NCBI GenBank assembly: GCA_000830315.1
Contig: CP010426.1
Span: forward strand, 345,934-409,933
Reading direction: 5' to 3'
Length of the DNA stretch: 64,000 nucleotides
Source of the DNA: an archaeon GW2011_AR20
GTDB lineage: Archaea; Nanobdellota; Nanobdellia; SCGC-AAA011-G17; GW2011-AR20
The notes beneath the pieces were generated by a model, which was not told where the DNA came from, did no database searches, and saw nothing but the letters and a program-made list of their open reading frames with translations. The translations under genes and the position numbers were made by a program. This document shows, one piece after another, positions 40,309-43,217 of the stretch (positions are counted from its first letter, which is position 1; each line of letters opens with the position of its first letter).

Positions 40309-40701
40309 ATGAGGATTAGCTATTATACTAGATACTGGCTGCCTGTAATGATTTATATGGGCTTTATTTTTTATTTATCCTCTTTGCCAAATCCGGTTGA
40401 GCAGATTGTTCCAGAAAAAGCACTGGTTTATTTTAATTTTAGGCATTTTATTTACCACATCATTGAGTATGGAATTTTAAGTTTTTTGCTTTACAGGGCA
40501 TTAAAAACTACTTCAAAAATGCCACAAACTCTAGCAATTTTAATTGCAATTATGTACGCAATAACAGATGAAATACACCAATTTTATATTCCTGGAAGAA
40601 TTTCGAGCACATTCGATATTGCAATTGACTCTTTTGGAGCAATAGTAATGCAATGTATTATTAATGTTTATGAATGGTTTAAAGAAAATAATAAAATTTA
40701 G
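40309..40701 (+). CDS. VanZ-like membrane protein (target of cassette insertions)
   Basis: A 130-aa protein with four hydrophobic helices and the VanZ-type signature 'TDEIHQFYIPGRISSTFDIAIDSFGA' (residues 86-111). The family is found in bacteria and archaea and is linked to envelope stress or glycopeptide resistance; its reaction is unknown. The last 46 codons exist in two further copies (41892-42002 and 43078-43217). The A copy differs from the others only by transitions, most synonymous, so this 3' end was exchanged from another strain. Confidence 0.85.
   Translation: MRISYYTRYWLPVMIYMGFIFYLSSLPNPVEQIVPEKALVYFNFRHFIYHIIEYGILSFLLYRALKTTSKMPQTLAILIAIMYAITDEIHQFYIPGRISSTFDIAIDSFGAIVMQCIINVYEWFKENNKI
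40559..40701 (+). repeat. vanZ gene-end repeat, copy A (functional)
   Basis: Copy A is the 3' end of the intact VanZ-like gene. It differs from copy C at about nine of 126 aligned positions, all transitions. The module between A and B contains the MNT-HEPN pair. Confidence 0.85.
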
Positions 40702-40737
40702 AATGAGACCGAAAGCCTTGCAAAAATCTTTCGAATA

Positions 40738-41247
40738 TTACCCTTCAATTATCTCTTTTGTTTTTGCTATAACTTCTTGAGCTAATTCAAACAACTCTTT
40801 GTATAAGTTATCTTTTAATGACAAAAATGTTTCATATTGATATCTCTCCCTTATTTCAACAGTTTTTTCTTTTCCTTCTTCTTTTGGTTCTACAGAAGCA
40901 ATTCTGTTAAGCAATTCCTTGTCAAAATCTATTTCTCCATGCTCAATTAAATTCAAGATTAGAGCAAAAGTACATTCTTGATTTTTGGATTCATAACCAA
41001 ATTTTGTTATTATGGCAAGCAAACAGGAATACATTGAATAAAAAACAGTACTTGCACTTATGTCTGAAAAATTTCCTTTTTTTAAATAATCAGTAGCTTT
41101 AAGATAATGCTCTGCTTTTTTAATATAATCATAAGCTCTATTTAAATCTGGTTTTATTTTAATTAAACCACGATGTTTTCCTGTCTCCTTTAATTCTTTT
41201 TCAGCTTTCTTTAAGCACCAATCTATTTTATTTTCAGCGTGGCTCAT
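40738..41247 (-). CDS. HEPN-domain protein (putative toxin)
   Basis: A 169-aa helical protein with the C-terminal motif 'IRERYQYETFLSLKDNLY'. It is the partner of the MNT gene just upstream (4-nt ATGA overlap). The motif R-x-R-Y-Q-Y-E mirrors that of the HEPN at 2.1-2.6 kb, supporting the same family. In known MntA-HepT pairs the HEPN is an RNase controlled by AMPylation at a Tyr near R-X4-6-H; here that Tyr is present but the His is not clear. It ends 37 nt from vanZ copy A and points toward it. Confidence 0.75.
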   Translation of the reverse strand: MSHAENKIDWCLKKAEKELKETGKHRGLIKIKPDLNRAYDYIKKAEHYLKATDYLKKGNFSDISASTVFYSMYSCLLAIITKFGYESKNQECTFALILNLIEHGEIDFDKELLNRIASVEPKEEGKEKTVEIRERYQYETFLSLKDNLYKELFELAQEVIAKTKEIIEG

Positions 41248-41825
41248 TTTGATAATAACTTAATAATTAGATCTTCACCAAATGCAACAATGCCCTTAAT
41301 AGCGTTAAATATTACTTTATCCCCGTCCTTTATGTTTCCTTTTATGTCATCTTTAGTTTGGTATATCGGGTGGTATTTTTTAGGATTTATAAGATTTAAT
41401 GATTCAATTTCTTTTTTTACTTTTGGAAACCTTTTTTGATCTGTAATTAATAAAATATCTATATCATTAGCTTCTTTATTTTTAGTTAATGCAGAACCAA
41501 ATAAAATAGCAGCATCAGCATTTTTTATTGTTATAATGTCATTTATTTTTGCTCTTAAGAAAGGTGTTCCTTCTTTAGATTCTTTCTGCAATAAAAATTT
41601 AATATATTGTTTTACATATTCATTTTCTAAATTAAGTTTAAAGAATTTAGCTTTTCCTAATTCCTTGTAACTTATAATTTCTTGTTTCTCGAGATTTTTA
41701 GCTATTTTTAAAGCGCCCATTGGAGTTATATTAAGAATTTTAGATATACTATTTGCGTTATACTCTATTTCTATAGACTTAAATATGGTCAATACAAATT
41801 TCATTTCATTTCTTGTTATATTCAT
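41244..41825 (-). CDS. Winged-helix MNT nucleotidyltransferase (putative antitoxin)
   Basis: A 193-aa protein: N-terminal winged helix ('MNITRNEMKFVLTIFKSIEIEYNANSISKILNITPMGALKIAKNLEKQEIISYKELG' gives a wHTH pattern) and a nucleotidyltransferase core with 'ILFGSALTKN' and 'DIDILLIT' (GS...DxD). It would AMPylate or otherwise neutralise the HEPN partner. It reads toward vanZ copy A; the 18-bp palindrome just upstream covers its promoter. Confidence 0.82.
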   Translation of the reverse strand: MNITRNEMKFVLTIFKSIEIEYNANSISKILNITPMGALKIAKNLEKQEIISYKELGKAKFFKLNLENEYVKQYIKFLLQKESKEGTPFLRAKINDIITIKNADAAILFGSALTKNKEANDIDILLITDQKRFPKVKKEIESLNLINPKKYHPIYQTKDDIKGNIKDGDKVIFNAIKGIVAFGEDLIIKLLSK

Positions 41826-41835
41826 ATAAACTCCT

Positions 41836-41853
41836 AGTTTATATATATAAACT
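41836..41853 (-). promoter_or_regulatory. Palindromic operator over the MNT promoter
   Basis: AGTTTATATATATAAACT is a perfect 18-bp palindrome that includes the TATA box, 11-28 nt upstream of the MNT start. Occupation by the winged-helix MNT protein would block TBP. Confidence 0.6.
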
Positions 41854-41891
41854 TTTAGTTTAAATAGTTTTCGGTTTATCTTTAATTCAGT

Positions 41892-42002
41892 CTAGGAAGA
41901 ATTTCGAGCACATTCGATATTGCAATTGACTCTTTTGGAGCGATAGCAATGCAGTGCGTTATTAATATTTATGAATGGCTTAAAGAAAACTTCAAAAATT
42001 AA
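41892..42002 (+). repeat. vanZ gene-end repeat, copy B
   Basis: Ninety-five bases match copy C with one difference, then the ends diverge; the reading frame of the VanZ C-terminus is still open to a TAA. No start codon or upstream part is present. It forms the boundary between the MNT-HEPN cassette and the caspase-like cassette. Confidence 0.85.
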
Positions 42003-42048
42003 TTTTATAAAAGTAAAGTTTATAAGCCTGTAATTTATTATTAATAAT

Positions 42049-42228
42049 ATGAACAAGGAAAAATTTCTTAAGGTTTATTCTAATCTTCCTTTAAATTTAA
42101 GAAAAGAGATTGTATTAATTTTGGATAAAGAACCAATAACTTGGGATGTCGCATATTTAGAAGTTAGGGGGAACACAAAAAAAGGAGAGAAAATTTTAAA
42201 TAAGCTAAGCGAATTAAAAATAATATGA
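42049..42228 (+). CDS. Small conserved-looking protein of caspase-like cassette
   Basis: A 59-aa protein ('MNKEKFLKVYSNLPLNLRKEIVLILDKEPITWDVAYLEV...') of mixed alpha/beta prediction, with ATGA overlap to the next gene. Its sequence is not low complexity. I believe similar small proteins occur next to CHAT/caspase-like proteases in bacteria and archaea but cannot name a family. A TATA-like element (TTTATAAG) lies about 25 nt upstream, so this is the first gene of a three-gene operon. Confidence 0.7.
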   Translation: MNKEKFLKVYSNLPLNLRKEIVLILDKEPITWDVAYLEVRGNTKKGEKILNKLSELKII

Positions 42229-42428
42229 AAAATGGTAATGAGGTTAAACAAATTGTAATAGCTAGATTAGAAGTTTTACCTAAGGATAAGAAGATTTCTA
42301 TCGGCGGTGAAGGAAGTTTTAGCAGGGATGAGTTAATAGAGCATGTAAATAAAGAAGATAAGATAGGCAAAAAAATAATAGAAGTTGAAATGGACTTCTT
42401 GCGTTCATTAAAAGAAGGAATCATATAA
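42225..42428 (+). CDS. Small protein of caspase-like cassette
   Basis: A 67-aa protein ('MKNGNEVKQIVIARLEVLPKDKKISIGGEGSFSRDELIEHVNKEDKIGKKIIEVEMDFLRSLKEG') with a helix-turn pattern around 'FSRDELIEHV'. It overlaps the preceding gene by 4 nt and ends 3 nt before the protease-like gene. Its fixed order with the other two genes suggests a regulator or adaptor of the protease. No family named. Confidence 0.7.
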   Translation: MKNGNEVKQIVIARLEVLPKDKKISIGGEGSFSRDELIEHVNKEDKIGKKIIEVEMDFLRSLKEGII

Positions 42429-42431
42429 AAG

Positions 42432-43073
42432 ATGACCGAAATTCTTGTAACTAGACCGGAGCATGATGATACAACTTATTACTTGTCAAATTGGATTAAA
42501 AATTCGATAGATATGGCCAAATCAAAAAATATTAAAGTATTTGATTTACAAAAAGAAAGGGCGAATTTAAAAGAAGTTGAAAGTATCATAAATAAACAAA
42601 ATGTTTCTTTTCTAGTCTTTAATGGTCATGGAAACGAAGATTTAATTACCGGTGATAAAAATAAAACTTTAATAGATTTAAATAATGCAAAATTATTAAA
42701 AAATAGAATAACTTATGCTATCTCCTGCAGTTCTGCTAAATTACTTGGATTAAAGAGTATTGAGAATGGTGCTACTTCTTATATTGGTTATGATGACGAT
42801 TTTATATTTTTTTATAATCCAAATATGGTTACACACCCATTAAGCGATAAAACAGCCGAGTTGTTCTTAAAACCCTCTATTGAATTAGTGAATTCATTAA
42901 TAAAAAATAATTCTGTTGAAGAATCTTTTAATAGATCAAATAATATGTTTAAAGATAATATTAAGAAATTATTAACTAGCGAAACTTCTGAAGAAAATAC
43001 AACCATGGTTAGATATTTATGGTGGGATATGAAGCATCAAGTAGCTTTAGGTAACAAAAATGCAACAATTTAA
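42432..43073 (+). CDS. Caspase/CHAT-like cysteine protease
   Basis: A 213-aa protein with the His-Cys dyad layout of clan CD proteases: 'FLVFNGHGNED' (His66-Gly67) and 'ITYAISCSSAKLLG' (Cys99), followed by 'GATSYIGYDDDF'. These match caspase-like/CHAT folds, where the H-G and C blocks are about 33 residues apart. No other domain is present. Together with the two small upstream genes it forms a compact three-gene cassette between copies B and C of the vanZ end. Related proteases drive abortive defence in bacteria; that role is inferred here. Confidence 0.75.
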   Translation: MTEILVTRPEHDDTTYYLSNWIKNSIDMAKSKNIKVFDLQKERANLKEVESIINKQNVSFLVFNGHGNEDLITGDKNKTLIDLNNAKLLKNRITYAISCSSAKLLGLKSIENGATSYIGYDDDFIFFYNPNMVTHPLSDKTAELFLKPSIELVNSLIKNNSVEESFNRSNNMFKDNIKKLLTSETSEENTTMVRYLWWDMKHQVALGNKNATI

Positions 43074-43077
43074 TCAC

Positions 43078-43217
43078 GAATAACAGATGAAATACACCAA
43101 TTTTATGTTCTTGGAAGAATTTCGAGCACATTCGATATTGCAATTGACTCTTTTGGAGCGATAGCAATGCAGTGCGTTATTAATATTTATGAATGGCTTA
43201 AAGAACAAAACCATTAG
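43078..43217 (+). repeat. vanZ gene-end repeat, copy C (probable original 3' end)
   Basis: The longest of the displaced copies, starting at the conserved 'ITDEIHQFY' motif and ending with the same frame at TAG. It differs from copy B by one base over 95 bp. As the outermost copy, it is probably the original end of the gene, separated when two cassettes were added one after another. Confidence 0.8.

Follow-up and report, generated by a model that had tools for sequence, protein, structure and literature searches.

Three adjoining genes in the genome of the archaeon GW2011_AR20 form a compact operon that recurs as a unit in DPANN archaea and has been transferred between lineages as a cassette of about 1.2 kb. 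They occupy positions 42049 to 43073 of the window, the term used here for the whole 64,000-nucleotide stretch of contig CP010426.1 that was analyzed, and encode two small proteins, s1 and s2, followed by a larger protein, E, whose modeled structure resembles those of CHAT and caspase-type cysteine proteases. The trio looks like an undescribed mobile toxin or defense module of very small archaea, nameless in protein-family databases. The more specific proposal, that it is a self-contained, horizontally moving toxin-antitoxin (TA) or abortive-defense-type module in which s1 and s2 restrain E as a protease effector, we regard as evenly poised between right and wrong.

Gene organization and promoter

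All three genes lie on the forward strand, with s1 at 42049 to 42228 (59 amino acids), s2 at 42225 to 42428 (67 amino acids), and E at 42432 to 43073 (213 amino acids), exactly the coordinates and sizes given by the original prediction, which had been made from the DNA letters and their open reading frames. The start of s2 overlaps s1 by 4 bp and E follows s2 after a gap of 3 bp, so that the genes form one tight operon, as had been proposed. A candidate archaeal TATA box (TTTATAA, 42019 to 42025, forward strand) about 24 to 30 nt upstream of the s1 start suggests that the trio has its own, near-leaderless promoter, and A/T boxes resembling TATA are found upstream of many other trio loci too.

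Conservation and distribution

The order s1-s2-E was kept in 48 of 49 loci, comprising the window and 48 others (L042 to L089); s2 was immediately upstream of E in all 49 and s1 was upstream of s2 in 48, and the usual gene junctions were 4-bp overlaps. The exception, L055, has a truncated s1 that is recognizable for its first 14 residues only. A separate scan, covering one genome for each GTDB species, yielded 17 matches, several of them on contigs identical to loci already in the collected set, and the complete trio was present in 17 of 17. The conservation of gene order on which the original prediction had been staked was thus found in both collections, and mis-assembly as the cause of the trio was ruled out because dozens of independently built assemblies contain it. 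The lineages named in the contig titles (Woesearchaeota, Pacearchaeota, Nanoarchaeota/Nanoarchaeia, Aenigmatarchaeota, and Ca. Iainarchaeum) all belong to DPANN; a restriction of the trio to this group is provisional because the scan of GTDB species used one short motif.

The presence of the trio is patchy across the phylum. A search for E among 61 relatives led to nine genomes that carry it, and profile searches recovered E in 44 of 371 genomes of the phylum, or about 12% (29 of 243 when high-quality genomes are considered), and, for the order, in 17 of 103. Genomes with more than one copy have up to three, and these are dissimilar, with 26 to 34% identity in E. Searches with the s1 and s2 profiles, run independently, recovered essentially the same sites as E, and among about 50 s2 matches, s1 and s2 were almost never found without E or E remnants.

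Purifying selection acts strongly on all three genes. The dN/dS ratio was between 0.03 and 0.12 for s1, s2, and E in every pair of related loci where it was estimable; in one s1 pair the synonymous changes were saturated and gave no ratio. Taken with the conserved gene order, these ratios put the trio far outside what chance would produce. Distances between the s1, s2, and E sequences were correlated (Mantel r of 0.67, 0.76, and 0.85, with 0 of 999 permutations as high), so the three genes travel and diverge as one.

Predicted fold and catalytic residues of E

The original prediction had assigned His66 and Cys99 of E to caspase/CHAT-like blocks, which read NGHG and SCSSA, and both residues proved to be invariant in 40 of 40 intact homologs. 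The remaining invariant columns in this set are D12, G67, G119, and D139, and D12 and D139 are candidates for the residues that set cleavage specificity. An AlphaFold (AF2) model of the E protein of the window, made with 17 relatives as input, had a pLDDT of 97.5 and a pTM of 0.92 and adopts a caspase-hemoglobinase fold, in agreement with the fold that had been anticipated. In the model, H66 follows the strand at residues 58 to 64 and C99 the strand at residues 93 to 97, as a His-Cys dyad placed after strands 3 and 4. Foldseek comparison of the model with the PDB returned SAVED-CHAT (expect value, 1.7e-6), CED-3 (5e-5), TPR-CHAT (5e-4), and separase (6e-4), with probabilities of about 1.0. By its modeled structure, E belongs with the CHAT and clan CD proteases, and its peptidase activity is putative. 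The length of E is about 205 to 226 amino acids across loci, without an extra domain.

The remote-homology searches that had been proposed gave no named family for any of the three proteins, and the fold of E was reached without one. When each protein was searched alone and as sets of 40 to 46 members, no family in Pfam, NCBIfam, PHROGs, or PADLOC fit s1, s2, or E, and E matched none of the CHAT, C14, C11, C25, or C50 family models in these collections. Profile searches of PDB sequences with the trio proteins likewise found no relative. Matches of trio proteins to Lactonase, DUF7675, DUF7713, and YqgF were dismissed as subthreshold noise.

The small proteins s1 and s2

From their sequences, s1 looks like a distant paralog of s2. 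The s2 profile matches the s1 protein of one locus, L106, with an expect value of 1.4e-4, and direct comparison of the s1 and s2 profiles gave a value of 8e-4 but a low probability. Residues W32 and E38 are invariant in an alignment of 45 s1 sequences and G48 in an alignment of 46 s2 sequences, and each protein has a conserved Gly-Lys-Lys stretch. Across loci the partner proteins are 57 to 86 amino acids long, and no membrane segment, enzyme, known pore fold, or recognizable ligand-binding domain was found in s1 or s2. An AF2 model of s2 (pLDDT, 90.1) consists of a helix, a beta hairpin, and two further helices; a structure search with it gave no solved-structure match, so the role of s2 is not readable from its structure.

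Several weak similarities of s2 were set aside. A resemblance to an OmpR-type winged helix (expect value, 0.5) found no support in the structure search, and a weak profile match to an epimerase (L114) was judged to be chance. Profile matches to the C-terminal part of an apparent exosome subunit Rrp41 (L113:3275-3979, 6e-5; L115:1071-1829, 8e-4) are probably chance as well.

A two-gene relative in an archaeal virus

Caudoviricetes sp. vir519 (BK063666.1), whose assigned host is a methanogen (Methanofastidiosa), carries a gene pair (00053/00054; L140:4223-5166) made up of a small gene and a distant homolog of E. The homolog was detected by tblastn (5e-6) and, in a scan of six viral proteins, by profile (2e-17); it is 21% identical, keeps the GHG motif and the catalytic Cys, and carries an added C-terminal hydrophobic segment that is probably transmembrane. 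The small gene, for a 66-amino-acid protein, overlaps it by 4 bp, and nothing else in the 38.8-kb record matches the s2 profile as this protein does (6e-4). Judged by these similarities, a two-gene form of the module is present outside DPANN. The virus has one small gene where the trio has two, which fits an origin of s1 and s2 by duplication, with a small protein and the protease as the core pair. Searches of virus contigs and plasmids turned up no copy of the actual trio. The vir519 genome also encodes a queuine tRNA-ribosyltransferase.

Insertion site in GW2011_AR20

The surroundings of the operon had been described as an insertion hotspot next to a TA module, and both parts of that description stand, the second in substance. 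The site is marked by a vanZ-like gene whose 3' end is present three times, each time on the forward strand: copy 1 (40560 to 40691) lies within the intact vanZ gene (40309 to 40701), copy 2 (41861 to 41992) forms both the right border of a neighboring insert and the left border of the trio insert, and copy 3 (43079 to 43210) forms the right border of the trio insert. The repeat occurs at only these three sites in the whole 829-kb genome. The neighboring insert, between copies 1 and 2, holds genes on the reverse strand for a HEPN-like toxin (40738 to 41247) and an MNT-type nucleotidyltransferase antitoxin (41244 to 41825), whose Pfam matches (HEPN, 8e-4; Polbeta, 1.5e-5) fall just under the gathering cutoffs; the site therefore holds two TA-like inserts, one behind the other. 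Across a 97-bp core, copies 2 and 3 share 99% identity. Within this region (40560 to 43210), copy 1 is about 7% divergent from the near-identical copies 2 and 3, an order of divergence that is not explained by simple target duplication. Clear relatives of vanZ were found in only two other genomes, on contigs other than that of the carbamoyltransferase.

Mobility and genomic company

Loci from several families and two orders (L046, L048, L050, L052, L069, and L088) share 80 to 92% DNA identity. The similarity spans from about -145 to about +1070 relative to the trio, or to about +1230 in some pairs, a length of about 1.1 to 1.4 kb, over which identity between archaeal families is 83 to 92%. Since the similarity ends just outside the trio, what moves is the trio together with its promoter, about 1.2 kb in all. 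In 7 of 50 loci, direct repeats lie on either side of the trio within 2.5 kb, compared with 16 of 700 control placements in the same genomes, placements that overlap and represent about eight distinct repeat pairs.

Several borders copy the 3' end of the gene that precedes the unit. In the window this gene is vanZ; in L045 and L050 it was named by eye as PD-(D/E)XK-like and AlbA-type, respectively; in L104 the border is the end of a tRNA-Asp gene together with downstream sequence. Circles integrating by recombination at gene ends would produce such borders. The L104 trio (L104:4351-5927) lies behind tRNA-Asp(gtc), and its flanking 145-bp direct repeat, 96% identical, begins in the tRNA 3' end. 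In a different genome, too, the trio is found just behind tRNA-Asp(gtc) (L088:4458-5916).

Repeat-bounded cassettes with the trio adjoin MNT-HEPN, PIN, and other TA-like genes. The enrichment of defense and TA genes near trios is modest: PIN was counted 3 times against 2 in the controls, and Polbeta and HEPN ranked with the leading families near trios only. Three DPANN loci (L075:1-6500, L078:1-5683, and L080:1-7100) contain arrays of short TA-like units, their genes named by eye, between direct repeats of about 50 to 290 nt, and the L078 repeat resembles the C-terminal end of a surface-protein gene.

Comparison with known systems

The best structural match to E, SAVED-CHAT (PDB 8tl0; TM score, about 0.57), is an effector of CBASS and type III systems that shares the CHAT fold and the His/Cys dyad. 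It has in addition a SAVED domain and a CD-NTase/cyclase or a CRISPR signal generator, whereas the trio is without all of these: it stands alone, similarity between loci stops just outside it, and E has no extra domain. The Craspase of type III-E systems resembles the trio in combining a CHAT protease, TPR-CHAT (Csx29), with a small partner, Csx30, and its structures were among the matches (7y84, 8d9g, and 7y8t). However, Craspase has TPR repeats, gRAMP/Cas7-11, crRNA, and a sigma factor, which the trio lacks: the E model leaves no room for TPR repeats, no gRAMP/Cas7-11 gene is conserved with the trio, and s1 and s2 match no named family. The caspases and separases of clan CD have the caspase-hemoglobinase fold, but E is a minimal single domain without a prodomain. 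In the bacterial gasdermin-protease pair the neighbor is a pore-forming gasdermin, a match that the small partners in the trio do not show.

Type II TA systems such as VapBC and MNT-HEPN are like the trio in being small, overlapping, mobile, patchy, and located beside other TA cassettes, and the trio has their tight operon of small, co-inherited genes. It differs from them in having a third gene and in the protease fold of its effector, which would be out of the ordinary for a TA system; toxicity and its neutralization are putative in the trio. Archaeal integron and CALIN cassettes, TA-rich arrays of short gene units between direct repeats (PMC9668308), resemble the trio loci in this layout. 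An integron gene cassette is defined by attC sites and the integrase IntI. Direct repeats are present at trio loci, and the borders of the trio copy host-gene 3' ends or the end of tRNA-Asp. A limited keyword check of works on archaeal defense, dark matter, and integrons (PMC12988326, PMC6393860, and PMC9668308) met no mention of caspase systems. One of these works reports that DPANN archaea have few CRISPR-Cas and restriction systems (PMC12988326). An undescribed mobile module in about one-eighth of the phylum's genomes therefore fills a gap in knowledge of their conflicts.

Proposed function and alternatives

If s1 and s2 restrain a protease effector, E would be a compact CHAT-like cysteine protease with His66 and Cys99 as its catalytic residues, and s1 and s2, encoded ahead of it in one operon, would bind it and keep it inactive. 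A trigger, perhaps takeover by a virus or an imbalance following loss of the module, would release or activate E, and the freed protease would cut cell proteins until growth stops. The obligatory association of the genes, their mobility and patchiness, the TA company that they keep, and the His/Cys dyad under selection argue for this interpretation. In many TA operons, small genes precede and overlap the effector, as they do in the trio. The suggestion of a defense or addiction system in the original prediction accordingly gains support from mobility and from the TA- and defense-type company, while a toxic or defensive role of the protease remains putative. One can go further and propose the first caspase-fold protease TA system, a DPANN "addiction caspase" in which a CHAT protease is restrained by two small paralogs and carried in cassettes of about 1.2 kb; an archaeal virus would then carry a membrane-anchored form with two genes. 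We put this forward tentatively, as more doubtful than probable.

The same genes could be arranged differently, with a signal-activated E cutting s1, s2, or both, and the cut forms then acting. Known systems include CHAT or caspase-like proteases whose substrates are small proteins encoded next to them, precedents being Csx30, cut in Craspase, and gasdermin, cut by its protease. The close divergence of s1 and s2 with E is consistent with such a role, and their Gly-Lys-Lys stretch could suit a protease that prefers basic residues. However, neither a membrane segment nor an enzyme or known pore fold is seen in s1 and s2, it would be odd for two substrates to be retained at all loci, and the trio comes with no sensor gene; we consider this arrangement unlikely. 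The last point also bears on the idea that s1 and s2 are themselves sensors, which rather than inhibiting E would recognize a viral product or a nucleic acid and then assemble or activate the protease. SAVED-CHAT, whose activated filament is the nearest solved fold to E, is activated by filament formation, and small helical adaptors often link sensor and effector in defense systems, a bridging role that s1 and s2 might share. Yet neither has a recognizable ligand-binding domain and no third conserved gene could serve as the sensor, and this account strikes us as slightly less likely still. Strong purifying selection would also be expected of a protease with an everyday regulatory or housekeeping function, helped by two chaperone-like proteins and carried along with other cassettes by chance; the patchy occurrence (17 of 103 in the order), dissimilar multiple copies, pseudogenes, and cassette-type transfer make this very improbable.

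A bare caspase-fold protease with only two tiny partners would offer one of the simplest ways to study how such a protease is held back and set off, which bears on how caspase-type cell death originated. Were the addiction-caspase proposal true, the smallest archaea would possess in the trio a minimal unit of programmed death. At just 1 kb, the trio makes the prediction cheap to test.

Decayed loci

In six decayed loci (in G002, G072, G218, G248, G295, and G367) E has been lost while s1, s2, or both remain open, and L055 is the single case of the opposite kind; this 6:1 bias of decay toward E falls short of significance when the lengths of the genes are taken into account (about 0.19 in a simple hand-worked binomial). 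Among the remnants, s2 stands beside an E fragment in G367 and G295:C29, s1 is alone in G323:C49, and s1 contains a stop in G002:C97. One locus carries a second, decayed copy of the trio (L050:2877-3230), in which a deletion fuses the s1 frame to the last third of E. In another (L118:4599-5108), s2 is fused in-frame behind a possible PIN-type toxin fragment, with a decayed E downstream. A remnant trio consisting of s2 and a 58-amino-acid E fragment (L110:2050-2839) directly adjoins an apparent piece of cas1.
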